In this document: one piece after another, positions 21,604 to 38,385 of the stretch
Layout of the letters: the number at the start of each line of letters is the position of its first letter
Position numbering within the stretch: the stretch's first letter is position 1
DNA from: Sporichthya polymorpha DSM 43042
GTDB taxonomy: Bacteria > Actinomycetota > Actinomycetes > Sporichthyales > Sporichthyaceae
Reading direction: 5' to 3'
Length of the DNA: 64,000 bases
Assembly (NCBI RefSeq): GCF_000384115.1
Contig: NZ_KB913029.1
Location: forward strand, 2,579,057 to 2,643,056
Program-made: the position numbers and the translations under genes
Notes under the pieces: generated by a model
What the model was told of the DNA's origin: nothing
What the model saw: the letters and a program-made list of their open reading frames with translations, nothing else
Databases searched by the model: none

Positions 21604-21648
21604 CCGGCCCCCGCCACCACCGCACCACCACAGACTCGGGAGAACCCA

Positions 21649-22038: not shown

Positions 22039-22048
22039 GTCGCACGCC

Positions 22049-22465
22049 TTGACGACGCTCCAGCGCTTCGGGCTCGAGGGCCCTTCCCACAACCGACACG
22101 ACGAAGGCCACTGGGACGGCCTGCGAGCGGGTGAGTTCCGGATCCAGCGCTGTACCGCGTGTGCGCGCTGGATCTGGATCGCCCAGCCGCTCTGCCCGTC
22201 CTGCCACACCTTCGACCCGGGGTGGGAGGCCGTCGAGCCCGCCGGCGTCGTCTACGCCTGGACCCGCACGCACAAGGCGTTCCACCCGACCGCCGAGGTG
22301 CCGTACACGACGGTCCTGGTCGAACTGCCCCAGGCCGGCAACACCCGGGTCCTCGGTCTCTACGCGGGCACCGAGGACCCGGTGATCGGCTCCCGGGTGG
22401 TGGGGACCTTCGAACCCGCCCCGGACGAGAACAGCTGGCCCCTGATCCGCTGGAGTGCGGCATGA
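22049..22465 (+). CDS. DUF35 zinc-ribbon/OB-fold protein (copy 1)
   Basis: 138-residue DUF35 protein beginning with TTG. The rubredoxin-like zinc ribbon is C-T-A-C and C-P-S-C, 16 residues apart, followed by an OB-fold (AGVVYAWTRTHKAFHP, PYTTVLVEL). Such proteins bind acyl-CoA and act as obligate partners of thiolase-like enzymes, as ChsH2 does for Ltp2 in steroid side-chain aldol cleavage. Its stop overlaps the ATG of the thiolase-like gene (ATGA), supporting a complex between the two products. Confidence 0.87.
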   Translation: MTTLQRFGLEGPSHNRHDEGHWDGLRAGEFRIQRCTACARWIWIAQPLCPSCHTFDPGWEAVEPAGVVYAWTRTHKAFHPTAEVPYTTVLVELPQAGNTRVLGLYAGTEDPVIGSRVVGTFEPAPDENSWPLIRWSAA

Positions 22466-23628
22466 GCATCCGCGGAGCAGCCGCCGTCGTCGGCGTCGGG
22501 CAGACCCCGTACTACAAGCGCAACACCGCCCCGCGCAGCACGCGGGGTCTCGTCGCCGAGGCCGTGATCCAGGCCGCGCAGGACGCCGGCATCGACCCCC
22601 GCGACATCGACGGCTTCGCCTCGTGGGGCGACGACCCCACCGAGGGCACCCACATCGCGACCGCGCTCGGCGTGCGCGAACTCCGTTGGTCCTCGCTCGC
22701 ATGGGGCGGCGGTGGCGGCGGGCAGGTCCCGTCGATCCTCCAGGCCGTCGCGGCGATCGCGACCGGCATGGCGGACTGCGTCGTCGTCTACCGCGGCATG
22801 AACCAGGCCGAGGAAGGCCGGCTGCCGTACGCCAAGGGTCACTTCGACACCCAGTACTCCGCGCACGGCATCCTCACGCCTGTCCAGACCTGCGCGCTGC
22901 GCACCCAGCGGATGCTCGAGATCGACAAGGTCCCGCCGTCCGCCCTCGAGGCCCTCGCGCTCGCGGGCTACCACCACGCGCAGAACAACCCGCGTGCCGT
23001 GGCCTACGGCCAGCCGCTCGACGCCGAGGCGTACCGCGCCTCGCGCCTGATCTCCGAGCCGCTGCGCCTCAACGACTGCTCCCGCGAGAACGACGGCGCC
23101 GGGGCGATCCTGCTCGTGTCCGCCGACCGCGCGAAGGACACCCGGGGCAAGCCGGCCTACGTACTCGGCGGCGTCCAGGGTTTCGTCGCCGGCTGGGGCG
23201 AGCTGACGGAGAACCACAACCCGTACACCTCGAACGGCCTGCTGCCGCCGATGGTCGAGCGGCTGTGGCGCGAGTCCGGGGTCGGTGTCGAGGACGTCGA
23301 CGTCACCCAGGTCTACGAGAACTTCACGGGTCCCGCGGTGGCCGCGCTCATCGACGTCGGTCTCGTCCCGCCCGGCCCCGCCGCCGGCGAGGTGATGACG
23401 CTGGAGAACCTGACGGTCGAGAAGGGCCGACTGCCGATGAACACCGCCGGCGGCAACCTCGCCGACGGGTTCGTCCACGGCATCGGCGTCGTCCTGGAAG
23501 CGGTCCGCCAGATCCGCGGGGACTCCCCGAACCCGGTCGCGGACGCGAAGGTCTCGCTGCTCCTCGGCGGCCCGATGGCCCCCCAGGTCGGCGCGATGCT
23601 CTTCGGTTCCGCCGACGCGCTCGCCTGA
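22462..23628 (+). CDS. thiolase-like lipid-transfer/aldolase protein (copy 1)
   Basis: 388-residue thiolase-fold protein of the Ltp/SCP-x type. VVGVGQTPYYKRNT and AAQDAGIDPRDIDGFASW are the normal N-terminal half; the central glycine-rich WGGGGGGQ has no cysteine at the thiolase nucleophile position. NTAGGNLADGFVHGIG matches the C-terminal half motif. Without the nucleophile it may be a retro-aldolase such as Ltp2 rather than a true thiolase. It forms a pair with the DUF35 protein before it; a second pair exists at 44176-45872. Confidence 0.88.
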   Translation: MSIRGAAAVVGVGQTPYYKRNTAPRSTRGLVAEAVIQAAQDAGIDPRDIDGFASWGDDPTEGTHIATALGVRELRWSSLAWGGGGGGQVPSILQAVAAIATGMADCVVVYRGMNQAEEGRLPYAKGHFDTQYSAHGILTPVQTCALRTQRMLEIDKVPPSALEALALAGYHHAQNNPRAVAYGQPLDAEAYRASRLISEPLRLNDCSRENDGAGAILLVSADRAKDTRGKPAYVLGGVQGFVAGWGELTENHNPYTSNGLLPPMVERLWRESGVGVEDVDVTQVYENFTGPAVAALIDVGLVPPGPAAGEVMTLENLTVEKGRLPMNTAGGNLADGFVHGIGVVLEAVRQIRGDSPNPVADAKVSLLLGGPMAPQVGAMLFGSADALA

Positions 23629-23634
23629 CGCTGA

Positions 23635-23682
23635 GTCAGTCGGCGGGTCAGTCACCGGCCCAGTCAGCGGGTCAGTCGGCCG
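23635..23682. repeat. four imperfect 12-bp tandem repeats
   Basis: Units beginning GTCAGTCGGCGG, GTCAGTCACCGG, CCCAGTCAGCGG and GTCAGTCGGCCG lie in register at the junction between the thiolase-like gene and the opposing TetR gene. The TetR stop codon is inside the last unit. The repeat gives stop codons on the reverse strand (TGACTGA) and may also aid termination. Confidence 0.7.
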
Positions 23683-24289
23683 GCTGTCGCAGCGCGGCGA
23701 TGACGTAGGTCGACATCCAGTCGCGGATGCGGTCGTCGTCGAGGCCGAACCCGGCGGAGTTCTCCACCAGGGCGAACTGGGCGAACATGATCCACTGGAT
23801 CAGCTCGTCCAGCGGGCGGTCGGTCCGCAGACCGTGGTGCTCCTGGGCGTCGGTGAGCAGGGGAGTCCAGAACTCGCCGAGAATCGCGAGCACGCGCTCG
23901 GACTCCAGGAACATCGGCGTGAGCTGCGCGAACTCGGCGTCGACCAGCAGCCGCACGTACGGATTGGCGAGGGACTCCGCCACCGTCAGGTAGGCGGCGT
24001 GCGCCACGCGGTCCAGGCCGCGGCCGCGCAGCCGGCGGCGGGTGCTGTCGAGGAGCTGCTGCACCTGCCGGGCGACGACCTCGAGGATCAGGTCGTCCTT
24101 CGACGCGAAGTAGTAGTACACGGTCGGGCGCGAGACGCCGAGTGCGTTCGCGACGTCGTCCATGTTCGTCCCCCGGATGCCCTGCTTCTCGAAGCAGGCG
24201 AGGGCGGCGTCGTGTATCCGCGTCCGCGGGTCGGTGCCAAGGGCCGACTTCGGGCCGCGCTTGCGGCTCCCGGTTTCGTCGTCCCCCAT
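23672..24289 (-). CDS. TetR-family regulator
   Basis: 205-residue TetR protein. The helix-turn-helix is NMDDVANALGVSRPTVYYYF at about residues 40-60; the rest is helical with IQWIMFAQFALVEN near the C-terminus. It is transcribed away from the alcohol dehydrogenase/ligase unit across a 327-base spacer rich in dyads. It could share control of that unit, or recognise the TGAC-N14-GTCA or CACGTAACGTG palindromes in the spacer. It is an alternative candidate for the shared CTA-N7-TAG repressor. Confidence 0.88.
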   Translation of the reverse strand: MGDDETGSRKRGPKSALGTDPRTRIHDAALACFEKQGIRGTNMDDVANALGVSRPTVYYYFASKDDLILEVVARQVQQLLDSTRRRLRGRGLDRVAHAAYLTVAESLANPYVRLLVDAEFAQLTPMFLESERVLAILGEFWTPLLTDAQEHHGLRTDRPLDELIQWIMFAQFALVENSAGFGLDDDRIRDWMSTYVIAALRQPAD

Positions 24290-24341
24290 GGCGGCGAGTT
24301 TAGGGCGGCCGCCTGAACCGGGGCTCAGCCGAATCGAAATA

Positions 24342-24371
24342 TTGACAGATGTGCGTTGAAGTCAGTATTTA
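24342..24371 (+). promoter_or_regulatory. distal TTGACA / TATTTA promoter
   Basis: Consensus -35 TTGACA at 24342-24347, 18-base spacer, then TATTTA at 24366-24371. A transcript from here would have a leader of about 240 bases before the alcohol dehydrogenase start. Confidence 0.45.
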
Positions 24372-24424
24372 TGGAGAGCGACGAAACATACTCCACGTAA
24401 CGTGCCAGGTCAGACGCGAGTTAC

Positions 24425-24437
24425 CTACGTGTAGTAA
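24425..24437. promoter_or_regulatory. variant of the shared dyad
   Basis: ACCTACGTGTAGTAAGT holds CTA-N7-TAA with matching outer bases, a single change from the shared dyad. It would be a second site 98 bases upstream of the exact copy at 24523. Confidence 0.4.
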
Positions 24438-24495
24438 GTGCCCGCTCGCTTCGAGTGAAGATGTCCGGATCGTGTCCGGGGTTCCCGTTCGCCCG

Positions 24496-24535
24496 TTGAC
24501 GGCGTGGTCATGTCTCCTTAGACTAAAGCCTGTAG
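24496..24535 (+). promoter_or_regulatory. promoter with overlapping CTA-N7-TAG operator
   Basis: TTGACG (24496-24501), 17 bases, TAGACT (24519-24524) is a good promoter. CTAAAGCCTGTAG at 24523-24535 is an exact dyad that begins on the last bases of the -10, a classic repressor position. It drives the alcohol dehydrogenase and ligase genes. Confidence 0.7.
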
Positions 24536-24616
24536 GTTTCATCGGCGTTGCTGCGGACGCCGTCCCGACGATCACCCGTTCGGGGGCACCGCGGCCAGCA
24601 GTGAGGGGTCACCAGG

Positions 24617-25732
24617 GTGACGATCACGTCGAGGGCAGCGGTCCTCTTCGAAGCTCCGGGGGAATGGGAGATCGTCGAGGTACAGGTCGACGAGCCCAAG
24701 GAGCACGAGGTGCTCGTCCGGTACGTGACCGCGGGCCTCTGCCACTCCGACGACCACGTCGCCAAGGGCGACGTGCCGATGGCGCACCTGCCCCTGTGCG
24801 GTGGCCACGAGGGCGCCGGCATCGTCGAGGCCGTCGGCCCGGGTGTCCGCAACCTGCAGCCCGGTGACCACGTCATCGCGGCGTTCATCCCGAGCTGCGG
24901 GCACTGTCGCTGGTGCGCGACCGGGATGCAGAACCTCTGCGACAACGGCGCCTTCATGATGATGGGCACGCAGCTCGACGGCACGTACCGCATGCATCAC
25001 AAGGGTCAGGACGTCGCGCAGACGTCGCTGGTCTCCACGTTCTCCGAGTACGCCGTCATCCCCGAGTGGGGCGCGCTGAAGATCGACAAGGACCTGCCGC
25101 TGCAGTCCGTCGCGCTCCTGGGCTGCGGTGTCCCCACCGGCTGGGGTTCGGCGGTCAACGCCGCGCAGGTCCGCCCCGGTGACGTCGTCATCGTCATGGG
25201 CACCGGCGGCATCGGCATCAACGCCGTCCAGGGCGCCAAGCACGCGGGGGCGGCGCGGATCATCGCCGTCGACCCGGTGCAGTTCAAGCGCGAGAGCGCG
25301 CTGAAGCTCGGCGCCACCGACGCGGTCGAGAACATGACGCAGGCGACCGACCTCGCGCAGTCCCTGACGAACGGTCAGGGCGCCGACTCGGCCATCGTCA
25401 CCGTCGGCGTCGCCAAGGGCGAGCACGTCGGCCAGGCCTTCGCCTCGATCCGCAAGGCCGGCACCGTCGTGCTGACCGCGGTCTCGAACATCGACGAGGC
25501 GAACATCCCGGTCAGCCTCTTCGAGATGGCCATGTTCCAGAAGCGGATCCAGGGCGCCCTGTTCGGCATGATGTCGCCACAGGCCGCGATCCCGCACTTC
25601 CTGAACCTCTATCGGCAGGGTCAGCTGCACCTCGACGAGCTCGTCTCGAAGCGGTACCCACTGGAGGAGATCAACACCGCGTACGCGGACATGCACGCGG
25701 GCACCAACATCCGTGGGGTGGTGGACTTCTGA
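24617..25732 (+). CDS. zinc alcohol dehydrogenase, NDMA-dependent type
   Basis: 371-residue medium-chain zinc alcohol dehydrogenase. Catalytic zinc site GLCHSDDH and GGHEGAG; structural zinc site CGHCRWCATGMQNLC; nucleotide fold GTGGIGINAVQGA. The wording matches the actinobacterial NDMA-dependent family, in which the tightly bound NADH is thought to be recycled by mycofactocin; that link is from family knowledge and no mycofactocin genes are in this window. GTG start behind GAGGGG. It overlaps the ligase gene by one base and probably oxidises a pathway alcohol. Confidence 0.9.
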   Translation: MTITSRAAVLFEAPGEWEIVEVQVDEPKEHEVLVRYVTAGLCHSDDHVAKGDVPMAHLPLCGGHEGAGIVEAVGPGVRNLQPGDHVIAAFIPSCGHCRWCATGMQNLCDNGAFMMMGTQLDGTYRMHHKGQDVAQTSLVSTFSEYAVIPEWGALKIDKDLPLQSVALLGCGVPTGWGSAVNAAQVRPGDVVIVMGTGGIGINAVQGAKHAGAARIIAVDPVQFKRESALKLGATDAVENMTQATDLAQSLTNGQGADSAIVTVGVAKGEHVGQAFASIRKAGTVVLTAVSNIDEANIPVSLFEMAMFQKRIQGALFGMMSPQAAIPHFLNLYRQGQLHLDELVSKRYPLEEINTAYADMHAGTNIRGVVDF

Positions 25733-27258
25733 TGGCGGCAACCCTGGTCTCGGCGCTCCGATGGTGGGCGCGCACCCGCGGGAACGACGCCGCGTGGATC
25801 CTCGAGGACGACACCGTCTTCTTCCGTACCGCGCAGGACTGGACCTCCCGCATCGGTGAGGACCTCGCCGCCCGCGGCGTGCAGCCCGGCGACCGCGTCG
25901 GCGTTCTCGGCGGCAACTCGCTCGAGTGGGCGGCCGCCGCTCTCGGCGTGCTCAAGGCCGGCGGCGTCGTGGTTCCGCTGAACCCGCGTCTGGTCGGGCC
26001 GGAGCTCCACAAGATCCTGTCGATCGCCGGTGCCACGACGATCATCCACGAGCCCGCCTTCGAGCCGGTGCTCAAGGAGGTCGCGGGCATGGGGCTCGAG
26101 CTCCGGACCGTCGCCCTCGACGCCGTCACCGACCTCCGCCCGGAGGCGGGTGCGGCCCCGAACGACTTCGTCGTCGACGTCGACCCCGAGGCCCCGGCCA
26201 TGGTGATCTTCACCAGTGGCTCCACCGGCCTGTCCAAGGGCGTCATCTGCACGAACCGTCAGCTGCTCTCGATCGCCTTCGAGGCGAGCCTGACCGAGGA
26301 GGGCATGCGCCCCGGCGGCCGGACGCTCCTCGTCCTCCCGCTCGCGTTCACGCCGGGCCTCGTCTGGGGGCTCGCGCTCTCCGCGATCCTCGGCACCACG
26401 CTGGTCGTCGAGAAGACCCTCGACCCGACGCGGGCCGTCGACCTGATCGAGAAGCACAAGATCGGCGCTCTGTTCGGTGTGCCGCTCATCTTCGGCGCGA
26501 TCGCCTCGGCCCCGAACTTCGCGAGTGCCGACCTCTCGTCGCTGACGTCCGCCTTCACCGGTGGCGCCCCCGTGCCCGTCCCGCTGCTCCAGGCCTGGGG
26601 CAGCAAGGGTGTGAAGCTCCGTCAGATCTACGGCATGACCGAGGCCGGCGGCGTCGCGACCGCGACTCTCGTCAAGGACGCCGAGCAGCACCCCGACTCG
26701 TGCGGCCACGGCTCGGTGTTCACCGAGTTCCGCATCGTCGACGCCGAGGGCAACCCGGTCGCCCCCGGTGAGAACGGCGAGATCCTGCTCCGCGGCCCGG
26801 GCATGACGCCGGGTTACTGGGGCGACGAGGAGACCACCGCGCAGGCGATCCGGGACGGCTGGATCCACAGCGGCGACCTCGGCACCACGACCGAGGACGG
26901 CCGCCTCAAGTTCGTGGACCGGCTCAAGGACCTGATCATCACCGGCGGCATCAACGTCTCGCCGGTGGAGATCGAGCAGGTCATCGCCGCGATCCCCGGT
27001 GTGACCGAGGTCGCAGTGATCAGCGCGCCCGACGAGAAGTTCGGCGAGACGCCCGCCGCGATCCTCTTCGCCGACGGTTCGGTGACCGTGGAAGCGGTCG
27101 TCGAGCGGTGCAACGAGCAGCTGTCCAGCTACAAGGTTCCGCGGTACGTCGTCCTCTCCCAGGAGCCGCTCGCCAAGCTCCCGAACGGCAAGCTCGCGAA
27201 GGTCGCCATTCGTGAGCAGTACGCGGATGTCGCAACGACCCATCCAAAGGTTCGCTAA
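25732..27258 (+). CDS. acyl-CoA ligase, AMP-forming (copy 1)
   Basis: 508-residue ANL-superfamily ligase that would activate a carboxylic acid to its CoA ester. The AMP-binding P-loop is FTSGSTGLSKG, the adenine motif YGMTEAGG, the hinge region GWIHSGDLG and KDLIITGGINVSPVEIE, and the C-terminal lysine lies in LPNGKLAKV. The ATG overlaps the alcohol dehydrogenase stop (TGATG), so alcohol, acid and CoA ester steps are coupled in one transcript. Related in type to the copy at 51417, though the pocket segments differ, suggesting different substrates. Confidence 0.93.
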   Translation: MAATLVSALRWWARTRGNDAAWILEDDTVFFRTAQDWTSRIGEDLAARGVQPGDRVGVLGGNSLEWAAAALGVLKAGGVVVPLNPRLVGPELHKILSIAGATTIIHEPAFEPVLKEVAGMGLELRTVALDAVTDLRPEAGAAPNDFVVDVDPEAPAMVIFTSGSTGLSKGVICTNRQLLSIAFEASLTEEGMRPGGRTLLVLPLAFTPGLVWGLALSAILGTTLVVEKTLDPTRAVDLIEKHKIGALFGVPLIFGAIASAPNFASADLSSLTSAFTGGAPVPVPLLQAWGSKGVKLRQIYGMTEAGGVATATLVKDAEQHPDSCGHGSVFTEFRIVDAEGNPVAPGENGEILLRGPGMTPGYWGDEETTAQAIRDGWIHSGDLGTTTEDGRLKFVDRLKDLIITGGINVSPVEIEQVIAAIPGVTEVAVISAPDEKFGETPAAILFADGSVTVEAVVERCNEQLSSYKVPRYVVLSQEPLAKLPNGKLAKVAIREQYADVATTHPKVR

Positions 27259-27352: not shown

Positions 27353-28639
27353 ATGAGCGGTAAGCACAAGCGATCCAAGTTCGCCGGAAGCCGGCGGCGG
27401 GTCGCGGCGACGGCGATTGCCACGGTGCTCACCCCGGCGGCCGCCACGTTCGGCGCGCCGGCCGCCTCCGCCGCCCCGGCGGAGGAGGACCCGTTCGGTG
27501 CGGTCTCCGACTTCGGGTCGGGTACCTATGCGGGCAAGGCGTCGGCGGACGGTGTGCGTGCGACGGTGGCGCTGCGGGACTACCTGATCATCGAGGACTT
27601 CGTCGACGGTGGCGGCCCGACCGCCCAGGCGGCGCTGGACAGCCTCGGGGAGTCCACGGCGTACTCCTCGCTCCCGTACCCGGGCGCGACCGGTGTGGCC
27701 CTGCCGGGTCTGGTCTCGACGTTGTCCGGCAAGTCGGTCCCCTCGTACCCGTTCTACGTGACGAGCCAGAACCCCTCGAACCCCGTCGAGACGGTCCGTC
27801 AGCCCGGCTACCTGATGCACGCGGAGTCGGCGGCGGAGCGGTCGGCCGCGCAGACCCAGTTGGGTTCGTCGACGAACACCGGTGAGGAGCTGGGCACCTT
27901 CGCCAACGCGAGCGTGGACTTCGTCGGCGGGACGATCACCTCCCTCGGCGAGGCGCGTACCCGGCTGGCGGTCGGTGCCCTGCAGCTCAACGGCGCCTTC
28001 TCCCGTGCGGTGGTGACGGTGGCTCCGGGTGGCAAGGTCACGAAGTCCTCGACGTTCGAGACCGCCCTGCGCATCGGCAACACCGTGATCGGTGTGACCG
28101 ACAAGGGCCTGGTCGTCGGTGACCAGAACGCTCCGCTGGACCCGGCGCGGCAGGTCGAGCAGGCCATCACCCAGGCCGGGGTGACGGTGAAGTTCCTGCC
28201 GGCGGTGGAGACGGCGGACTCGATCCTGTCCTCCGGGCTGGAGATCTCGATGCAGCAGGCGATCCCGAACGTCGGGACCGCCAAGGGCGTGGTCTCCTAC
28301 ATCATCGGCCGCACGTTCGCCCAGGCGACCGCGTCCGGGTTCACCTCGGGTGCGACCGGGACGGGTACGCCGCTGCCGGCCTCCCAGGCTCCCGCGGCCC
28401 CGGCCGCGCCGGTGGCCGGTGTGCCGACCACCGGTGAGGTCGACGCCGGTGCCCTCCCGGGCGCGCTGCCCGGCGCCGTGCCCGGAGCCGTTGCCGGTGG
28501 CGCTCCGGTGCCGACCGCGAACTTCGTGAACGCGGGCATCGCGCAGCCGAAGCTGACCGAGCTGGAGTTCTACCCGATCCTCGCCGCGATCGTTCCGATC
28601 CTTCTGCTGGCCGCTGTCGGCGCCCGCCGCTTCGTCTAG
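27353..28639 (+). CDS. secreted, membrane-anchored protein of unknown family
   Basis: 428 residues. An N-terminal signal peptide (positively charged KHKRSKFAGSRRR, hydrophobic stretch, likely cut after APAASAA near residue 40) precedes a globular region rich in Ser, Thr and Gly to about residue 330. A low-complexity linker follows with repeated GALPGAVPG-type units, and a C-terminal membrane helix (residues 405-425) ends in RRFV. There is no LPXTG motif, so it is tail-anchored in the membrane facing outwards. I recognise no domain. It is the first gene of the importer operon, which suggests a role in capturing or guiding the substrate through the envelope. Confidence 0.8.
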   Translation: MSGKHKRSKFAGSRRRVAATAIATVLTPAAATFGAPAASAAPAEEDPFGAVSDFGSGTYAGKASADGVRATVALRDYLIIEDFVDGGGPTAQAALDSLGESTAYSSLPYPGATGVALPGLVSTLSGKSVPSYPFYVTSQNPSNPVETVRQPGYLMHAESAAERSAAQTQLGSSTNTGEELGTFANASVDFVGGTITSLGEARTRLAVGALQLNGAFSRAVVTVAPGGKVTKSSTFETALRIGNTVIGVTDKGLVVGDQNAPLDPARQVEQAITQAGVTVKFLPAVETADSILSSGLEISMQQAIPNVGTAKGVVSYIIGRTFAQATASGFTSGATGTGTPLPASQAPAAPAAPVAGVPTTGEVDAGALPGALPGAVPGAVAGGAPVPTANFVNAGIAQPKLTELEFYPILAAIVPILLLAAVGARRFV

Positions 28640-28719
28640 AAGGCGCAGCGTGCAGAGTCGGCACAGCGTGTGATCGCCAGCTCCTAGACCTCCGAACCAA
28701 CCGATCTGAGGACCCGAAG

Positions 28720-29079
28720 ATGGAATTCGTGAAGTGGTGCCGCCTGCAGTGGGACCGGGCCTTGTCCGTGGCGGCGATCCTCGCCGGTGTTGTTCTCGTC
28801 ATCCTGGGTTGGATCGGCGTCTCTGACACCCCGTACATCGCCAAGCAGGTGCCGTTCGTCGTCTCCTACGGCATCGGCGGCCTCGTGCTGATCATCATCG
28901 GCTCGACGCTGTGGCTGTCGGCGGACATGAACGACGAGTGGCGCACGCTCGACCGCCTCGAAGAGGCGCAGCGCGCCAACACCGTCGACCGTTCTGAGCT
29001 GACGGCTCTTCAGGACCGTCTGCGCGCGCTGGAGAGCCGCGCGGACGCCCGGGCGTCCGAGCTCAGCCGCTCCCACTGA
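28720..29079 (+). CDS. small two-helix membrane protein with coiled coil
   Basis: 119 residues: two membrane helices (about 16-35 and 47-66) and a charged C-terminal coiled coil (about 72-115) with heptads such as LTALQDRLRALESRADA. The first helix ends in VLVILGWIGVS, a phrase nearly repeated as VLLLVLGWISVS in the next gene, so the two proteins are related or pair with each other. Its stop overlaps the next start. No family recognised; the operon suggests an accessory subunit of the Liv-type importer. Confidence 0.8.
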   Translation: MEFVKWCRLQWDRALSVAAILAGVVLVILGWIGVSDTPYIAKQVPFVVSYGIGGLVLIIIGSTLWLSADMNDEWRTLDRLEEAQRANTVDRSELTALQDRLRALESRADARASELSRSH

Positions 29080-29408
29080 TGGCTGGGAGCACGGTTCTGT
29101 CGCGTAGCGCGGGAGCCGGGAGCCGCGCCGCCGGACGGCGTCGGCCGGGCTCGCCGCCCAGCCTGATCGCCGCGGCGATCCCGGGTGCGCTCGGTGTGCT
29201 GCTGCTGGTGCTGGGCTGGATCTCGGTCAGTGGTGAGGCCGCGTTCGACGACCAGCAGACCGGCCTGAACCTCGCGATCCTCGGCGCGCTGGTCGTGCTG
29301 ATCGGGTGCGGGTTCTACCTGTTCATGTTCCGCCGTCGCATCGCGCACCGCATGCGTGCGGTGCGGAGCTCGATCTTCGGTGCTGAGTACGGGGAGGAGG
29401 AGGACTGA
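29079..29408 (+). CDS. small two-helix membrane protein, partner of the preceding gene
   Basis: 109 residues with a basic, disordered N-terminus, two membrane helices (about 28-50 and 62-84) and a basic then acidic tail ending GEEED. The helix-end phrase LGWISVS copies that of the preceding protein. ATG overlaps the preceding stop, and its own stop overlaps the permease start, so the stoichiometry is probably fixed by coupling. Function unknown. Confidence 0.8.
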   Translation: MAGSTVLSRSAGAGSRAAGRRRPGSPPSLIAAAIPGALGVLLLVLGWISVSGEAAFDDQQTGLNLAILGALVVLIGCGFYLFMFRRRIAHRMRAVRSSIFGAEYGEEED

Positions 29409-31423
29409 TGGACACCTGGTTGCCCTTCGTCGTCATCGGCATCACCGCCGGTGCGATCTACGGCCTGGCCGGCGTCGGCCTCGTCCTCACCTACCGGACC
29501 TCGGGCGTGTTCAACTTCGCCCACGGCGCGCTGGCGACCGCCGGCGTGTACCTGTTCTACGAGCTCTCGGTGCAGCGCAGCTGGCCGTGGTGGCTCGCCG
29601 CGATCGTCTGTGTGGCGGTCTTCGGTGTGCTGATGGGCCTGGCGCTCGAACAGGTCGCGCGCCGGCTGGCCAAGGCGCCGGCGTCGGTCATCGTCGTCGC
29701 GACCGTCGGCATCCTGCTGATCATTCAGGGCGCCGCCGCCGAGCGGTACGGCTCGCAGACGATCACCATCGACCAGTTCCTGCCGACGGACACCTTCGAC
29801 ATCAGTGTCTCGGTCGGTTACGACCAGCTGATCACGACCCTGGTGGGTGTCGCGATCGCGGCGGGCCTGGCGATCCTGCTCGGCCGGACCCGCATCGGTA
29901 TCGCGATGCGCGGTGTGGTCGATGACTCGGACCTGATGGAGCTGACCGGTCTGTCCGGCCCGGCGATCCGCCGCTTCGCCTGGATGATCGGTGGTTCGGT
30001 CGCGGTCGTCTCGGGCATCCTGCTCGCCCCGACCATCGGTCTGGACCCGGTCCGTCTGACCTACCTGGTCGTGCAGGCCTTCGGCGCCGCCGCGATCGGC
30101 CGTTTCCGCTCGCTGCCGTGGACGTTCATCGGTGGTCTGATGATCGGTGTCGCGGCCGCGATCGGGCAGAAGCTGGAGGCGGAGCACTCGGCGCTGCTGG
30201 GTCTGCCGGCCTCGGTGCCGTTCCTCGCCCTGTTCGTGATGCTGATCGTGGCGGGCAAGCGTGGTCTGCCCACCCCGGCGCCGGTGCGCCGCCAGCAGCC
30301 GGAGCACTTCACCCCGCTCCCGCTGGGTGTCCGCGCGGGCTTCGGTGTCGCGCTGGGCATCCTGGTGATCGCGCTGCCGGGTCTGGTGGACGCGCGGCTG
30401 CCGGTGTTCACCCAGGCCGTGGGTCTGGCGATCATGTTCCTGTCGCTCTCGCTGCTGGTGAAGATGTCGGCGCAGGTCTCGCTGTGCCAGGCCGCCTTCG
30501 TCGCCGTCGGTGCGGTCGCGTTCTCCCGCCTGTCGACCGAGGCGAACCTGCCCTGGCTGCTGGCGCTGCTCGGGGCGGGTCTGATCACCGTCCCGCTCGG
30601 CATCATCGTCGCGCTGCCGGCGGTGCGCCTGGCCGGTATCTACCTGGCGCTGGCCACCTTCGCGTTCGGCCTGCTGATGGAGAACCTGATCTACCGCAAG
30701 GACATCATGTTCCCGCAGGGCGGGGTGCGGGAGGCGCCGCGGCCGAACATCCCCGGTTCGGGTCAGGCCAGTGACAAGGAGTTCTTCTACATCGCGGTCG
30801 CGATCCTGGTCGCGGTCATCGTCGCGGTCGTGGTGCTGCAGCGCTCCCGCCTGGGTCGTCTGCTGCGGGCCATGGCCGACTCGCCGCTGGCGCTGTCGAC
30901 CTACGGCACCGGCACCACGACCACGCTCATGCTGCTGTTCGCGATCTCGGCGTTCTTCGCCGGCATCGCCGGTGGGGTGCTCGCGGTCGGCACCGGCGCG
31001 GCCGGTCCGGGTGGTCTGGGGTCGCTGCAGTCGCTGCTGTGGGTGGCGATCATCTCGATCACCGGGTCGAACCTGATCCGGTCCTCGATCATCGCGGCGC
31101 TGCTGCTGGCGGTCATGCCCTCCTACGTGACCGAGCTGAACCCGAACTACCAGTCGATCATGTTCGGCGTCGCCGCCGTCCTGGTCGCGCTGCTCGCAGC
31201 CAAGGAGTTCGACCCGGTCGCGTGGATCCGCGAGAACCTCGCCACCTCCTCCCGCGTCGGCACCCGGGGCCCGATCCCGAGCCGGGCGACGGACGGCGGT
31301 TGGCGCCGGGCCGCGAGCTCGCGCCAGCCCGTTCCGGCGGCGGCCGCGCGGCGGGCTGCCGGTGAGGGCGACGAGGACGACGACCAGCCGATCGAGCTCG
31401 CATCGACGGGAGGCTCCCGATGA
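29408..31423 (+). CDS. fused LivH-LivM-type ABC permease
   Basis: 671 residues containing both branched-chain-amino-acid-type permeases in one chain: a LivH-like half (residues 1-290, GAIYGLAGVGLVLTYRTSGVFNFAHG is diagnostic in pieces) and a LivM-like half (about 310-600, with VSLCQAAFVAVGAVAFS and LPAVRLAGIYLALATFAFGLLMENLIYR). The usual separate genes are joined. A hydrophilic tail of about 60 residues ends DEDDDQPIELASTGGSR. It would form the membrane channel with the ATPases that follow; the surrounding genes suggest an acid or aromatic-like substrate rather than an amino acid. Confidence 0.92.
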   Translation: MDTWLPFVVIGITAGAIYGLAGVGLVLTYRTSGVFNFAHGALATAGVYLFYELSVQRSWPWWLAAIVCVAVFGVLMGLALEQVARRLAKAPASVIVVATVGILLIIQGAAAERYGSQTITIDQFLPTDTFDISVSVGYDQLITTLVGVAIAAGLAILLGRTRIGIAMRGVVDDSDLMELTGLSGPAIRRFAWMIGGSVAVVSGILLAPTIGLDPVRLTYLVVQAFGAAAIGRFRSLPWTFIGGLMIGVAAAIGQKLEAEHSALLGLPASVPFLALFVMLIVAGKRGLPTPAPVRRQQPEHFTPLPLGVRAGFGVALGILVIALPGLVDARLPVFTQAVGLAIMFLSLSLLVKMSAQVSLCQAAFVAVGAVAFSRLSTEANLPWLLALLGAGLITVPLGIIVALPAVRLAGIYLALATFAFGLLMENLIYRKDIMFPQGGVREAPRPNIPGSGQASDKEFFYIAVAILVAVIVAVVVLQRSRLGRLLRAMADSPLALSTYGTGTTTTLMLLFAISAFFAGIAGGVLAVGTGAAGPGGLGSLQSLLWVAIISITGSNLIRSSIIAALLLAVMPSYVTELNPNYQSIMFGVAAVLVALLAAKEFDPVAWIRENLATSSRVGTRGPIPSRATDGGWRRAASSRQPVPAAAARRAAGEGDEDDDQPIELASTGGSR

Positions 31424-32328
31424 GCTCACCGAGCGCCGACACCACGGCAACCCTGCAGATCCACGAGCGCAAGGATCTGCCCGGGCTGAACATCGACGGT
31501 CTGACGATCCGCTTCGGTGGCCACACCGCGGTGAACCACCTGACGATGAGCGCCCCGATCGGTCAGGTCACCGGCCTGATCGGCCCGAACGGCGCCGGTA
31601 AGTCGACGACGTTCAATGCCTGCTCCGGCTCGCTCACCCCGTCCGAGGGGTCGATCTTCTTCGACGGTGTCGACCTAACGAAGGCGCCGGAGTCCAAGCG
31701 GGCGCACCTGGGCATCGGGCGCACCTTCCAGCGGATCGAGCTCTTCGATTCCCTGACGGTGCGTGAGAACGTCCAGCTCGGCCGCGAGGCCCGGCTGGCC
31801 GGCACTTCGCCGATCACCCAGCTCCTGCCCCGCAAGGGCGAGCGCACGATGGTCGCCGAGGCGGCCGAGCGCGCGATGGAGCAGTGCGGAATCCTCGACG
31901 TCGCCAATGCCCGCGCCGGCCGGCTCTCGACCGGTCAGCGCCGGCTCGTCGAGCTCGCCCGCGCGCTGGCCGGGGACTTCCGGCTGCTGCTGCTCGACGA
32001 GCCCTCCTCGGGTCTGGACCACTCCGAGAGTGACGCGTTCACCGCGCTGCTGCTCAAGGTGGTCGCCGAGAACGGCGTGGGCATCCTCATCGTCGAGCAC
32101 GACATGAACGTCATCTCGGGGCTCTGCGACTACACCTACGTCCTGGACTTCGGCCAGCTGATCTTCGAAGGCCTGCCCCGCGAGGTCCTGTCCTCCGAGA
32201 TCGTCCGCAAGGCCTACCTCGGCACCGAGGACCTCGGAATCGAGGACAGCGACGAGACGGACCCGCCCCAGGACTCCGGCGCGTCGGGCAACCTCAACGG
32301 AACGGGGCCGCACCGTGACCACGCCTAG
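31420..32328 (+). CDS. Liv-type ABC ATPase (LivG-like)
   Basis: 302-residue ABC ATPase with Walker A GPNGAGKST, signature LSTGQRRLVELARAL, Walker B LLLLDEPSSGLD, and the H-loop in IVEHDMN. The longer spacing before the signature, with IGRTFQRIELFDSLTV, matches the LivG subtype. In the signature, LSTGQ replaces the canonical LSGGQ. The start overlaps the permease stop. A C-terminal acidic tail (residues 270-302) is unusual. Confidence 0.93.
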   Translation: MSSPSADTTATLQIHERKDLPGLNIDGLTIRFGGHTAVNHLTMSAPIGQVTGLIGPNGAGKSTTFNACSGSLTPSEGSIFFDGVDLTKAPESKRAHLGIGRTFQRIELFDSLTVRENVQLGREARLAGTSPITQLLPRKGERTMVAEAAERAMEQCGILDVANARAGRLSTGQRRLVELARALAGDFRLLLLDEPSSGLDHSESDAFTALLLKVVAENGVGILIVEHDMNVISGLCDYTYVLDFGQLIFEGLPREVLSSEIVRKAYLGTEDLGIEDSDETDPPQDSGASGNLNGTGPHRDHA

Positions 32329-33130
32329 CACCGACCAGCGCACCGCCCAGCGCACCGACCAGGCCACCGAGCAGTCCAGCGCGCGCCCGATCCTCGAGGC
32401 GCGTGGGGTGACCTCCGGCTACGGCGAGAAGACCGTCGTCCGCAACATGAGCCTGACGCTGCCGGCCGGTGGCTCGATGGCGATCCTGGGCCCGAACGGC
32501 GCCGGGAAGACCACGTTCCTCAAGACGTGCTCGGGTCTGCTCAAGCCGACGGCGGGTCAGATCCTCGTCGACGGCAAGGACATGACCCGCCGCTCCACGC
32601 ACGAGCGGGTCAAGGCGGGGCTGTGCCACATCCCCGACCCCCGCGGGATCTTCCCCTCCCTCACGGTGAAGGAGAACCTGATCCTGCAGGCCCCGCGCGG
32701 GCAGGCCTCGGCGGCGATCGAGAAGGCGGCCTCGGCGTTCCCGCGCCTGGGTCAGCGCCTGAGCCAGGTCGCCGGGACCATGAGCGGTGGTGAGCAGCAG
32801 ATGCTCGCGGTCGCGCGCTCCTACATCCAGTCCCCGAAGGTCGTTCTGCTCGACGAGGTCTCGATGGGCCTGGCCCCGAACCTGGTCGACGAGATCTTCG
32901 AGTTCCTGGCCACGCTCAAGGACGCGGGCGTGGCGCTCATCGTCGTCGAACAGTTCGTCCACCGTGCGCTCGCCCTCGCCGACAGCGTTGTCGTCGTCGC
33001 GCGCGGAACGATCCGCCTGGCCGGCCGCTCCGACCAGTTCAGCGAGGACGAGATCTTCGCCGCCTACGCCGGGACGAACACCGGCGGCGGCCCCCAGGTT
33101 GTGCAGCAGGGAGGAACCGTCAGTGTCTGA
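32315..33130 (+). CDS. Liv-type ABC ATPase (LivF-like)
   Basis: 271-residue ABC ATPase with Walker A GPNGAGKTT, signature MSGGEQQMLAVARSY and Walker B VVLLDEVSMGLAP, the latter typical of LivF proteins. GTG start, 14 bases inside the previous gene. Together with the LivG-like protein it forms the heterodimeric motor of the importer. Confidence 0.93.
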   Translation: MTTPSTDQRTAQRTDQATEQSSARPILEARGVTSGYGEKTVVRNMSLTLPAGGSMAILGPNGAGKTTFLKTCSGLLKPTAGQILVDGKDMTRRSTHERVKAGLCHIPDPRGIFPSLTVKENLILQAPRGQASAAIEKAASAFPRLGQRLSQVAGTMSGGEQQMLAVARSYIQSPKVVLLDEVSMGLAPNLVDEIFEFLATLKDAGVALIVVEQFVHRALALADSVVVVARGTIRLAGRSDQFSEDEIFAAYAGTNTGGGPQVVQQGGTVSV

Positions 33131-35303
33131 TATCCGATTCGGCCGGCGCGCGCGGACGACAGCTGTCGTCGGCGTGGCCGCGCTCTCCGTGTTGCTCACC
33201 GGGTGCGGGGGCACCCGCATGAGCGACGAAGCGATCGTCGAGGCGGCGGGCGCTGCGCAGCAGGCGCAGGCCGGCGGCGCCGTCACCGACGGCCTCGGCG
33301 CGGTTCCGGGTGTCGACCCCGGCACCGGTGCGGCCCCCGCCGCCCCCGGCGCGGTCGGCAGCGACCCCGGCACGGTTGCCCCCGGTGCCACGACCGGCGG
33401 CGCGACCACCGGCGGTGGCTCGACCAACGCCGGCGGCGGCAAGAACAACGCCGGCGGTTCGACCAACGCCGGCGGCGCCACCACGGGTGGCGGCCAGGCG
33501 TCGGGCGGCCAGGCGGCCGGCCCGGTCACCCGCAAGTCCGTCATCAAGCTCGGCGCGGTCGGCACGTTCTCCGGCCCCGTCGGCGGTCTGGTGAAGGACA
33601 CCGTCACCGGTATCCGCGTCTGGGCGCAGGCTGTCAACGCGGCCGGCGGCATCAACGGCCACCCGGTCGAGATCCTCGTCGGTGACGACGGTGGTGACCC
33701 CGCGCGCTTCAACTCGATCCTGCAGCAGTTCGTCGAGCAGCAGGGCGTCCAGGCGTTCCTCTACACGACGCTCGGCTTCGCGCCGAACGGCAACAACAAG
33801 TACCTGGACTCGAAGAAGATCTTCACCTTCGCGCACGAGGGTGGCCTCGAGGTTCCCTACAAGAACCCGTACGTCCTCACGCCGGCCCCTGCGGGTCTGA
33901 CCTACGCGGACGTCATGGTGCTCTCGTTCGGCGCGGGCATCGGCGCGAAGGGCGGCGTCAAGCTCGCCTCGTTCGCCTGCAGTGACTTCGGTCTGTGCGA
34001 CAACTTCGACAAGCGCTGGAGCGACAAGAACGTCCTCGACAAGGCCGGCTTCTCGCTGGTCGCCCGTGGTCGTCCGTCGCTGACCCAGCCGGACTACACC
34101 TCGCAGTGCCTGGCCGCCAAGCAGGCCGGCGCCGAGGCGATCATCGTCGCCCTCGACGGTGCGGCCATCCGCCGCTTCGCCAGCGACTGCGCGCGGCAGA
34201 ACTACCGTCCGAAGCTCTCGTCCGCCGACCTGGTCATCACCAAGGACCTCCCCGGCGACAAGAACGTCGACGGCCTGGTGATCGGCACCAAGATGGCGCC
34301 GTTCACCAACACGGGCGTTGCGGGCATCAAGGAGATGCACACGGCGTTCGCCCGCTTCGCGCCGGGCCAGGTCATCACCGGTGGCATCTCGTACGGCTGG
34401 CTGATCGGTGAGTTCTTCGCCGCGGCCGCCAAGAACCTGCCGGACAAGCAGACTCTGAAGGACATCGAGGACGGCATCTACTCGATCAAGAACAACAACC
34501 TGAAGGGCATGACGTTCCCGATCACCATGACTCGGGGCAAGGCGATGGACCGTCAGCTCTGCTACGGCGTCGCGGTCGTCGCCGGTGACAAGTTCGCCAC
34601 CGGCTCGGGCAAGTCGTTCACCTGTGCCAAGAACGGCAAGCCGCTGAGCAACCCGGACGACTACTCGTCCCAGATGGGTGCGGCTGCCGGTGCGGTCGAG
34701 CAGGCCTCGCCGACCCGCGCCGCTCTGCAGGCGTCGACCCCGGCGGCGGCCCCGGCCGCCCCGGCGACGCAGCAGCAGGCGTGGCTGCCGGAGCTGAACC
34801 CGATCGTGGGTGTCGTGCCGGCCCGGGCCCGCGTGGCCACCTCGGCGCCCGCCCGTAACGCCACCGCCGGTGCGACGGCGACCGGCCAGCCGGCGGCGGA
34901 CACCTGCCCGCCGGACCGGGTCGCCGGCCTGTCCTACCTGCTGGACGCGATGCAGACCGGCAGCGCGGCCGGCCCCGGTGTGGTCTACGGCATCGCGCTC
35001 GCGGTGCTCGGAACCCCGCTGCCCGAGCCGCTCGGTCAGTTCCAGGGCCAGCTGCTCGCGGAGTCCGCGAAGTTCGTCGAGCAGTTCAGCAAGGACGCTC
35101 CGGCGGCCATCGCGGACTTCCGGACCTTCATCGAGCCGCTCGCGGCGTACAACGAGCAGGCCAACGGCTTCATCGACGCCGGCGCCGAGGCGCTCGACGG
35201 CATCGCGAAGGACTACGGTCAGTTCATCCAGCCGGGTGACCGCAGCCTGCAGCAGCTCGCGGCTTCGTTCCGCGACGCGAAGGCGACGAACACGCCCTGC
35301 TAG
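33123..35303 (+). CDS. Liv-type substrate-binding lipoprotein with extra C-terminal domain
   Basis: 726 residues from a GTG overlapping the LivF-like stop, behind GGAGGAA. A signal peptide ends in the lipobox LLTGCGG, so the protein is lipid-anchored. A Gly/Thr/Ala-rich linker runs to about residue 130. The periplasmic-binding domain (about 135-520) holds VGTFSGPVGGLVKDTV, VGDDGGDPARFNS and LTQPDYTSQCLAAK. A further 200 residues follow: an Ala/Pro linker, then a helical domain with CPPDRVAGLSYLLDAMQ. The paralogue at 54151 ends after the binding domain, so the extra domain is a specific addition. Confidence 0.92.
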   Translation: MSDIRFGRRARTTAVVGVAALSVLLTGCGGTRMSDEAIVEAAGAAQQAQAGGAVTDGLGAVPGVDPGTGAAPAAPGAVGSDPGTVAPGATTGGATTGGGSTNAGGGKNNAGGSTNAGGATTGGGQASGGQAAGPVTRKSVIKLGAVGTFSGPVGGLVKDTVTGIRVWAQAVNAAGGINGHPVEILVGDDGGDPARFNSILQQFVEQQGVQAFLYTTLGFAPNGNNKYLDSKKIFTFAHEGGLEVPYKNPYVLTPAPAGLTYADVMVLSFGAGIGAKGGVKLASFACSDFGLCDNFDKRWSDKNVLDKAGFSLVARGRPSLTQPDYTSQCLAAKQAGAEAIIVALDGAAIRRFASDCARQNYRPKLSSADLVITKDLPGDKNVDGLVIGTKMAPFTNTGVAGIKEMHTAFARFAPGQVITGGISYGWLIGEFFAAAAKNLPDKQTLKDIEDGIYSIKNNNLKGMTFPITMTRGKAMDRQLCYGVAVVAGDKFATGSGKSFTCAKNGKPLSNPDDYSSQMGAAAGAVEQASPTRAALQASTPAAAPAAPATQQQAWLPELNPIVGVVPARARVATSAPARNATAGATATGQPAADTCPPDRVAGLSYLLDAMQTGSAAGPGVVYGIALAVLGTPLPEPLGQFQGQLLAESAKFVEQFSKDAPAAIADFRTFIEPLAAYNEQANGFIDAGAEALDGIAKDYGQFIQPGDRSLQQLAASFRDAKATNTPC

Positions 35304-35364: not shown

Positions 35365-37593
35365 ATGCGTACCGCCCGTCGCATCTGCCCGTTGTGCGAG
35401 GCCATGTGCGGCCTCGACGTCACGCTCGAGGTCGCGCCCGACGGGACGGAGGTCGTCACCGCCGTCCGCGGCGCCGACGACGACGTGTTCAGCCGCGGCT
35501 ACCAGTGCCCCAAGGGCATCAACCTCGGGGCGCTGGACAGCGATCCGGACCGCCTGACGGTCCCGCTGATCCGCACCGACGACGGCTTCGTCGAGGCCTC
35601 CTGGGAGGAGGCCTTCGCGGCCGTCCGGGCCGGCCTCGACGCGGTGCGCGAGGCCCACGGCTCCGAAGCCTTCGCGCTGTACCGGGGCAACCCCACGGCC
35701 CACAACTTCGCCGCGGTGCCCTACCTGCGCGTCCTCATGGGCGCGATGAAGACCCGTCAGCACTACACGGCCAGCTCGGCCGACCAGATGCCGGCGCACG
35801 TGGCTGCCGGCGCGGTGTTCGGGTCCCCGATGTCGATCCCGGTCCCGGACATCGATCACACCTCGTACCTGCTGATGCTCGGCGCCAACCCGCTGGTCTC
35901 CAACGGCAGCCTGTTCACCGCCCCGGACCTGCCGCGCCGGCTGCGGGAGCTCAAGAAGCGCGGCGGCTCGCTGGTCGTCGTCGACCCGAAGCGCACCGAG
36001 ACCGCCCGCCGCGCCGACCGGCACCTCGCGATCCGCCCCGGTACCGACGCCCTGTTCCTGCTCGCGCTCCTCGCGGAGCTCGACGCCACCGGCAAGGTGA
36101 CGCCGGGTCAGCACGCGGCGGCCTTCGCGGGCCTCGACGAGGTGCTCCGCCTCGCCGCCCCGTTCACGCCGGAGCGCGTCGCGGGCGCGACCGGCCTCGA
36201 CCCGGCCGACATCCGCGCGGTGGCGCAGGACCTGGCCGCCGCCTCGACCGCCGCGGTCTACGGGCGGATCGGGACGTGCACGACGGTCCACGGCACCCTC
36301 ACGCAGTGGCTGATCATGGTGCTCAATGCCGTGACCGGGAACCTCGATCGGCCCGGCGGCGCGATGTTCCCGCGCAGCGCGATCCGCCCCGCCTACCTGC
36401 CCGAGGCGCCGATGAAGGTCGGGCGCTGGCACAGCCGCGTGCGGAACCTGCCTGAGGTGATCGGAGAGTTCCCGGTCGCCACCCTCGCCGACGAGATCGC
36501 CGAGCCCGGGGCCGGGCAGATCCGCGCTCTGATCACCGTCGCCGGCAACCCCGTCATCTCCGCGCCGAACGGCGACCGGCTCGACCAAGCCCTGCCGACG
36601 CTCGATTTTCTGGTCAGCGTCGACCCGTATCTGAACGAGACCACTCGGCACGCGAACGTGATCCTGCCGCCCCCGCGGGTGATGCAGAACGGCCACTTCG
36701 ACTGGCTGCTCAGCGGTTTCCAGGTCCGCGCGGTCGTCCGCTACACGCCGGCCGCGGTCGACCTGGCGCCCGGTCAGCTCTCCGAGGCGGACATCCTCGC
36801 GCGCCTCGCGGCCATCTGCGCCGGGAACGACACCCCGGCCGCGGCGGCCGCCGCCGGCGCCAAGCTCGTCGATGGCATCCTCACGCGCGCCGTGACGATG
36901 CCCGGCTCGCCGGTCGAGGGCCGGGACCCCGCCGAGTTGCTCGCCGCGGTCACCGGCCGCAGCGACCTCGAGCGCCACCTCGACGTGATGCTGCGCCTCG
37001 GCCCGTTCGGCGACGGCTTTGGCGCGAACCCCGACGGGATCACCCTCGAGAAGCTGCTGGAGCACCCCGAGGGCATCGACTGCGGGCCGATGGAGCCGCG
37101 CCTGACCGAGGTGACGATCCACCCGGACGGGCTCGTCCGGCTCTGCCCGGCAGAGTTCGCCGCGCAGGTCGAGACTCTCGCCGCCGACCTCGACCGCGCC
37201 TGGCCGGAGTACGTGCTGATCGGCCGCCGTGCGCTGCGGTCCAACAACAGCTGGATGCACAACCTGCCGGACCTGATCGGCGGCTCGACGCGGTGCACGT
37301 TGCAGATGCATCCCGACGACGCGGCCAAGCTCGGGATCGCCGACGGCGCCGATGTGACGATCACGTCCGCCGCCGGATCGGTGACGGCTCCGGCCGAGCT
37401 CACGCCGGCGATGCGCGCCGGTGTCGTGAGCCTGCCCCACGGATGGGGCCACGACGTCCCCGGCGTCCGGCTGAAGGTCGCCACCTCGGCGGCCGGCGTC
37501 AACGCCAACGCCCTGACCGATCACCGCGTGGTCGACCCGCTCTCCGGCACCGCCGTTTTCAACGGGGTGCCGGTCGAACTGACCCCCGCTTAG
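35365..37593 (+). CDS. molybdopterin oxidoreductase, DMSO-reductase superfamily (copy 1)
   Basis: 742 residues. The N-terminal [4Fe-4S] motif is C-x2-C-x3-C (CPLCEAMCG) with a fourth cysteine in YQCPKG, the Lys being the usual electron relay between cluster and pterin. Pterin-binding regions include LLMLGANPLVSNGS, VVDPKRTETARRADRH, GRIGTCTTVHG and the C-terminal SLPHGWGHD. It has no signal peptide, so it is cytoplasmic. It could hydroxylate or hydrate its substrate or reduce an oxo group; the reaction is not predictable. It is placed between the importer and an SDR/acyl-CoA dehydrogenase pair. Copy 2 is at 56892. Confidence 0.9.
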   Translation: MRTARRICPLCEAMCGLDVTLEVAPDGTEVVTAVRGADDDVFSRGYQCPKGINLGALDSDPDRLTVPLIRTDDGFVEASWEEAFAAVRAGLDAVREAHGSEAFALYRGNPTAHNFAAVPYLRVLMGAMKTRQHYTASSADQMPAHVAAGAVFGSPMSIPVPDIDHTSYLLMLGANPLVSNGSLFTAPDLPRRLRELKKRGGSLVVVDPKRTETARRADRHLAIRPGTDALFLLALLAELDATGKVTPGQHAAAFAGLDEVLRLAAPFTPERVAGATGLDPADIRAVAQDLAAASTAAVYGRIGTCTTVHGTLTQWLIMVLNAVTGNLDRPGGAMFPRSAIRPAYLPEAPMKVGRWHSRVRNLPEVIGEFPVATLADEIAEPGAGQIRALITVAGNPVISAPNGDRLDQALPTLDFLVSVDPYLNETTRHANVILPPPRVMQNGHFDWLLSGFQVRAVVRYTPAAVDLAPGQLSEADILARLAAICAGNDTPAAAAAAGAKLVDGILTRAVTMPGSPVEGRDPAELLAAVTGRSDLERHLDVMLRLGPFGDGFGANPDGITLEKLLEHPEGIDCGPMEPRLTEVTIHPDGLVRLCPAEFAAQVETLAADLDRAWPEYVLIGRRALRSNNSWMHNLPDLIGGSTRCTLQMHPDDAAKLGIADGADVTITSAAGSVTAPAELTPAMRAGVVSLPHGWGHDVPGVRLKVATSAAGVNANALTDHRVVDPLSGTAVFNGVPVELTPA

Positions 37594-37616
37594 CAACCCG
37601 CACGCAAGGAGTACGT

Positions 37617-38384
37617 ATGTCAGGCCCGCTCGCCGGGGAGATCGCGCTCGTCACGGGGGCATCCGGTGGTCTCGGCCGCCGGTTCGCCGTCGCGCTCGCG
37701 GAGCAGGGGGCGACGGTCGTCGCCACCGCTCGACGCAAGGACCGGCTCGACGAGGTCGCCGCGGAGATCGCGAACGGCGGCGGTCGGTGCGTCCCGTGGG
37801 CGCTCGACCTCGAGAACGACGACCTCGGCGAGGCGCTCGCCCGGATCTCCGACGAGGTCGGGCTGATCACGATCCTCGTGAACAACGCGGCGGCGGTCGA
37901 CGGCCGCCGCGCGCACAAGATGCCGGTCGAGCTGACCGACACCGTTCTCGACACGAACCTGCGAGCGCCGTGGCTGCTCGCCACCGGCGTCGCCGCGCGG
38001 TTGATCGAGGCCGGCCGGGGCGGGCGCATCGTGAACATCTCCTCGATAGCCGCGACCAACTACGGCCCGGACTCGGCACCGGCCGCGCTCTACTCCGTCA
38101 CCAAGGCCGCGCTGAATCGCATGACCGAGGTCCTCGGGGTCGAATGGGCGCGGTTCGGGATCAACGTCAACGGCATCGAGCCCGGCTTCGTCCACACGGA
38201 GATGGTCGGCGGGATGATGGAGCGGACCGGTCTGACCGTGGATCAGGTCGCCGCCCGGCAACCGCGCAAGCGGATGATGACGCCGGCAGACCTCGACGGC
38301 ACCCTGCTGTACCTCGTGGGCCCGGCCTCGGCCACGGTCACCGGCACGGTCGTCGTCGTCGACGACGGCGGGTTCGGGCGCTGA
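37617..38384 (+). CDS. SDR-family oxidoreductase
   Basis: 255-residue short-chain dehydrogenase/reductase. Cofactor motif VTGASGGLG, NNAA motif in ILVNNAAAV, catalytic serine in NISSIAA and the Tyr-Lys pair in YSVTKAAL. The Arg after ATARRK suggests NADP. ATG with AAGGAG eight bases before. It follows the molybdoenzyme and precedes an acyl-CoA dehydrogenase, so a 3-hydroxyacyl-CoA or ring ketone/alcohol step is plausible. Confidence 0.92.
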   Translation: MSGPLAGEIALVTGASGGLGRRFAVALAEQGATVVATARRKDRLDEVAAEIANGGGRCVPWALDLENDDLGEALARISDEVGLITILVNNAAAVDGRRAHKMPVELTDTVLDTNLRAPWLLATGVAARLIEAGRGGRIVNISSIAATNYGPDSAPAALYSVTKAALNRMTEVLGVEWARFGINVNGIEPGFVHTEMVGGMMERTGLTVDQVAARQPRKRMMTPADLDGTLLYLVGPASATVTGTVVVVDDGGFGR

Positions 38385-38385
38385 C

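Follow-up and report, generated by a model that had tools for sequence, protein, structure and literature searches.

Three nameless protein families accompany Liv-type importers in Sporichthya polymorpha and across its phylum

Liv-type importers of the HAAT family (LivKHMGF and UrtABCDE; Transporter Classification 3.A.1.4) are textbook five-part systems, in which ATP-driven import proceeds through a Liv permease fed by a binding protein. For the uptake of steroid-type compounds by actinobacteria, Mce4 imports cholesterol, and camABCD of Rhodococcus jostii RHA1 is an ABC importer of cholate metabolites (PMC8399759). We analyzed a window of 64,000 nucleotides from Sporichthya polymorpha DSM 43042 (contig NZ_KB913029.1, positions 2,579,057 to 2,643,056), hosting seven same-direction genes, identified as open reading frames (ORFs), that encode the proteins termed here S, M1, M2, LivHM, LivG, LivF, and K. 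The locus shares the permease, the two ATPases, and the Peripla_BP_6 binder families with the Liv/HAAT importers, whereas standard systems are devoid of S, M1, and M2. It further differs from them by the fusion of LivH and LivM and by K being a lipoprotein with a CG(T/S)R-type start and a long linker. We consider it probable that the locus encodes a variant of the Liv-type importer with M1 and M2 as membrane subunits and S as surface protein. The recurrence of the Liv link throughout the phylum makes it probable that S, M1, and M2 are genuine components of the transporter. The genes are arranged as follows (positions within the window):

27353..28639, + strand: S, with signal peptide, beta-rich extracellular domain, linker, and C-terminal transmembrane helix (ORF, hydropathy, AlphaFold)
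28720..29079, + strand: M1, two-helix membrane protein (ORF, hydropathy, conserved motifs)
29079..29408, + strand: M2, two-helix membrane protein, homologue of M1, lacking a C-terminal H-C-C-C tail
29408..31423, + strand: LivHM, fused permease with two BPD_transp_2 domains (~29432-30250 and ~30404-31186; PF02653)
31420..32328, + strand: LivG-type ATPase (ABC_tran and BCA_ABC_TP_C)
32315..33130, + strand: LivF-type ATPase (ABC_tran)
33123..35303, + strand: K, substrate-binding lipoprotein (Peripla_BP_6 at ~33543-34535; lipobox LLTGCGGTR)

All reading frames lie where a first-pass annotation of this DNA, made from the letters alone, had placed them. Its gene order from S to LivHM stands, while K, overlapping LivF, had been left out. 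The tight or overlapping spacing described there was also found: S and M1 are separated by a gap of 80 bp, and every junction from M1 onward overlaps by 1–14 bp (M1/M2 and M2/LivHM 1 bp each, LivHM/LivG 4 bp, LivG/LivF 14 bp, and LivF/K 8 bp).

The set present here proved to be one member of a large paralogous family and not a peculiarity of the locus, to which the earlier view had been confined. The genome of 5.5 Mb, assembled in one contig, contains 80 PF02653 domain matches, corresponding to about 40 Liv loci. This is an unusually large expansion, with 88 such matches in a same-genus and 52 in a same-family genome. The full-type set is found at 24 of the 40 loci (S at 24, M1 at 23, and M2 at 22), five loci (L035, L051, L056, L059, and L072) carry divergent relatives of S and M1/M2, and 11 are without. 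Gene order varies among the loci, e.g., S-M1-M2-LivHM-K or M1-M2-LivHM-G-F-S. Genome-wide searches with single queries returned about 17 significant places for S and about 28 for M1, all of them at Liv loci, and the same holds true for the significant relatives of M2 and for the M1 profile. The profile map of this genome was built from Liv loci alone; exclusivity rests on the genome-wide S, M1, and M2 searches together with the M1 profile.

Extension of the analysis toward other genomes revealed the same association. The M1 profile detected 44 loci in named GTDB genomes, nearly all of Actinomycetota (Sporichthya, Streptomyces, Actinophytocola, Nocardioides, Haloechinothrix, metagenome-assembled genomes (MAGs) of Frankiales and Acidimicrobiia, and one MAG labelled Acidobacteria). 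LivHM adjoins M1 in 40 of them, and the remaining four are truncated by a contig end less than 1 kb away. The Acidobacteria-labelled MAG carries a full S-M1-M2-Liv set (L103), for which transfer, misbinning, or mislabelling are possible. Within a phylum sample of 296 genomes, 26 others have M1-like matches; scoring was limited there to 16 candidates per genome for M1 and to 6 for S, so that copy counts from this sample are lower bounds. The number of M1 matches was 14–33 for each of four further genomes of the family and at least 1–7 for more distant genomes. Of 35 M1-like places examined from those 26 genomes, 34 are Liv loci; the exception (L147:9735-10064, minus strand) has no recognised Liv genes within the 20 kb examined. 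S matches were detected in seven other genomes, at Liv loci wherever examined, with a greatest distance of 1.7 kb between a significant match and a Liv gene; one match (G241) is dubious because it overlaps a K gene. Accessory genes scattered without Liv permeases, which the first-pass annotation had named as evidence against its own proposal, were searched for. The neighborhoods instead place these genes with Liv permeases across the sampled genomes, in the proportions given above and for all significant S and M1 matches of the Sporichthya genome itself. Many loci of the phylum sample have separate LivH and LivM genes and one M1-like gene but no S, suggesting that the association of M1 with Liv may predate, or extend beyond, the full set.

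Such linkage could also arise if S, M1, and M2 were mere operon neighbors with an unrelated envelope role, carried along in a block of genes that is duplicated as a unit. The copies within the Sporichthya genome probably stem from repeated duplication, which would be enough to keep neighbors together. However, the link spans many genera and several families, with varied gene order and strands as well as S-less and unfused versions, and a natural fusion exists, in which the reading frame of a LivM-type permease extends into a two-helix domain of the M1 type (L143, 5453-7192, minus strand). This fusion is a single case and might conceivably be an assembly artefact. We regard the explanation by neighborhood as very improbable.

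Co-divergence was found within the Sporichthya genome as well. Paralogue distances of S correlate with those of LivHM (rho 0.69) and K (rho 0.67), compared with 0.72 for LivF-LivHM and 0.70 for K-LivHM. The co-divergence of S with the permease is thus as strong as that of LivF and K, and as paralogues of one genome were compared, species history cannot confound it. In respect to the closest relative, a Sporichthya MAG (L073), S, M1, and M2 are 70–80% identical, with ratios of nonsynonymous to synonymous substitution rates (dN/dS) of 0.26–0.29, next to 0.28 for LivHM and 0.24 for LivF. Purifying selection acts on the three proteins as strongly as on the permease, and they consequently represent genuine genes.

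The core itself belongs to the Liv/HAAT family, comprising a pair of BPD_transp_2 domains, two LivG/LivF-type ATPases, and a Peripla_BP_6 binder. LivHM is a true fusion with both PF02653 stretches in one protein (156 bits), as previously recognized. LivG (best NCBIfam match LivG, 189 bits) and LivF (best match UrtE/LivF) both remained below the cut-offs of these models, and the Peripla_BP_6 match of K reached 120 bits. Every core protein scored far below the NCBIfam equivalog cut-offs for LivHMGF or UrtA-E. This bears on the possibility of a standard amino-acid or urea importer, with the extra proteins being incidental to the type of substrate. Although the nearest NCBIfam models of the core (UrtB/LivH, LivG, and UrtE/LivF) point in this direction, the low scores and the genes identified nearby, which serve catabolism of coenzyme A (CoA) esters, make it rather unlikely.

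The lipobox of K is followed by a Gly/Thr-rich linker. The mature forms of K begin with C-G-x-R or a similar sequence, the fourth residue being Arg in 38 out of 54, and this start is a possible docking motif; several plain Liv binders of the same genome have acidic mature starts instead. An extra C-terminal domain of K (~34902-35300, ~130 aa) has no Pfam match, and most paralogous K proteins are ~200 residues shorter. At another locus (L044:9322-18434), one S-M1-M2-LivHM set is followed by five tandem genes for substrate-binding proteins, which suggests that several binders serve one permease.

S is a protein of 428 aa. Its N-terminus bears a signal peptide, and its C-terminal part comprises a single transmembrane helix (~401-426) and a short RRFV tail. 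It had been described as a secreted tail-anchored protein; the C-terminal helix is indeed present, whereas the signal peptide had been missed, and both together make S a type I membrane protein and not a strictly tail-anchored one. In an AlphaFold model based on 38 sequences, a confident beta-rich domain (~55-335, predicted local distance difference test (pLDDT) of the core mostly above 90) is followed by an Ala/Pro-rich linker (~340-400), disordered at 344-402, and the terminal helix. No Pfam or NCBIfam family scored above cut-off for S, in agreement with its earlier description as being of unknown family, and none of the 38 relatives has a Pfam match even at E 0.01. Fold comparison against the PDB returned generic outer-membrane barrels with TM scores of 0.08–0.21, and a viral structure library gave 0.04–0.22; both were discarded as chance. 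The few near-invariant positions in the alignment of the family include none that look catalytic, so S is unlikely to be an enzyme.

M1 (119 aa) and M2 (109 aa) have two hydrophobic segments apiece by hydropathy and are homologous to each other (hhalign probability 96.9, E 1.4e-10), bearing out their designation as related two-helix membrane proteins. Neither matched a Pfam or NCBIfam family above cut-off, and a search of plasmid records with M1 gave no match. Their charge distribution suggests, by the positive-inside rule, an N-in/C-in topology. Conserved features of M1 are a WDR motif, a Q-x-PY loop, and SAD(L/M)xDEW after helix 2, with this topology suggesting a cytosolic location for the latter segment. 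For M2, 50 relatives have a C-terminal tail of the type H-x3/5-C ... C-x2-C, the four H-C-C-C positions being at least 90% conserved. Structure prediction gives a small, separately folded domain for the tail (pLDDT about 88–96 in a model of M2 from locus L083), while M2 of the window and of its closest relative are without it. None of the tails has a Pfam match above cut-off, and fold comparison of M2 gave no significant match. The H-C-C-C pattern (e.g., L083:1380-1511) resembles small zinc-binding domains.

These features are compatible with a more modest role. M1 and M2 might be assembly, stability, or regulatory factors (the M2 tail could, e.g., respond to metal or substrate in the cytoplasm and thereby switch the transporter), and S might be a cell-wall spacer or anchor; the Liv core would then be an ordinary one and the extra proteins would never touch the substrate. 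The small size of M1 and M2, their homology, and their two-helix architecture without channel-like sequence fit this explanation, as do the confidently folded separate M2 domain, dispensable in the copy of the window, and the same-genome Liv loci managing without the set. On the other hand, the co-divergence of S with the permease and K is what would be expected of a part that faces the substrate, and a long-conserved protein with few invariant residues is better explained by diversification of binding than by a passive spacer. We consider a role of this kind quite possible.

Several observations weigh against M1, M2, and S being subunits of the importer in the sense proposed above. In the same genome, 11 Liv loci do not have the set, and at L040 S occurs without M1 and M2, showing the extra proteins to be dispensable for Liv transport as such. 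Distances of M1 and M2 correlate only weakly with those of LivHM (rho 0.26 and 0.24), yet above shuffling, both being short proteins. In some distant cases, the M1-like gene is on the strand opposite to Liv. The fold of S is without a solved relative (best TM score about 0.2 or less) and its binding cavity stays hypothetical. Finally, the clues to the substrate class all come from gene neighborhood.

This neighborhood consists of the following genes within the window:

20323..27258, + strand: upstream catabolic genes (P450, SCP2 sterol-transfer, ChsH2-like zinc ribbon/OB, Ltp-like lipid-transfer thiolase, NDMA-dependent alcohol dehydrogenase, acyl-CoA ligase)
23672-24289, - strand: TetR gene amid the upstream catabolic genes
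35404..39552, + strand: downstream catabolic genes (molybdopterin oxidoreductase, short-chain dehydrogenase/reductase (SDR), acyl-CoA dehydrogenase)

ChsH2 together with Ltp2 acts in steroid side-chain cleavage. From these neighbors, a steroid- or isoprenoid-type acid is plausible as the likeliest guess for the substrate of this copy. The proposal of hydrophobic substrates in the first-pass annotation is thus supported indirectly, by steroid-type and CoA-dependent catabolic genes in the vicinity. Comparison of the flanks of set-bearing loci with sampled genes of the same genome (111 each) revealed enrichment of TetR genes (16 versus at most 1) and of SDR (8), enoyl-CoA hydratase (7), acyl-CoA dehydrogenase (6), and P450 genes (5, each versus at most 1); luciferase-like monooxygenases were likewise enriched. 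As the cassette was repeatedly duplicated in the lineage of Sporichthya, commonly beside CoA-dependent catabolic genes, the copies probably differ in the organic acid that they import. A weak parallel is known from Pseudomonas putida, in which HAAT binding proteins were observed to rise on estradiol (PMC5290480).

Taken as an importer variant, the system would be a seven-part type I importer of the HAAT family, with LivHM as channel, LivG and LivF as ATPases, and K as substrate binder. M1 and M2 would be dedicated membrane subunits next to LivHM; judged from the sequences, a physical complex with both as integral subunits is likely. The SADLRDEW segment of M1 would face the cytosol, as would the small domain with the H-C-C-C metal-ligand pattern at the end of M2 in most paralogues. 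The beta-rich domain of S would be held above the membrane by the flexible linker of 60 residues and the C-terminal helix, and S probably captures substrate or hands it to K, which starts with CG(T/S)R in most relatives, a capture or relay role being plausible.

A more far-reaching proposal can be put forward tentatively. The set might define a class of type I importers of single-membrane actinobacteria, made up of a Liv core, an obligate M1/M2 pair, and S as tethered beta-domain receptor. S would pass steroid or isoprenoid acids of poor solubility through the cell wall to lipoprotein binders that are interchangeable, the paralogues representing a substrate repertoire. For Sporichthya-type bacteria this would be a counterpart of Mce. 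The analogy is functional: both are envelope machines of several parts, in which extracellular proteins join an ABC permease, and both are found near catabolic genes of the steroid type. A relation in sequence was not seen; the permease is Liv-type and not YrbE-type, S is without a Pfam family, and none of the seven proteins matched an MlaD/Mce domain or YrbE permease in Pfam or NCBIfam. A further functional parallel is camABCD, as an actinobacterial ABC system for uptake of steroid-derived acids.

Among open-access papers on Liv accessory subunits, actinobacterial LivHM, and transporters of Sporichthyaceae, none describing the set was found. While the type of transporter is known, S, M1, and M2 as its phylum-wide companions appear to be missing from the databases and open-access literature consulted. 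Three nameless protein families accompany Liv importers across the phylum, with 24–29 out of 40 copies in one genome. Automatic annotation would tend toward "branched-chain amino acid transporters", a label that probably misnames the substrate and leaves parts of the system out. Provided that S, M1, and M2 are genuine subunits, they would provide a testable route to the uptake of hydrophobic nutrients by thick-walled actinobacteria without outer membrane, and the dozens of paralogues in one cell would be a natural experiment in matching binder to substrate.
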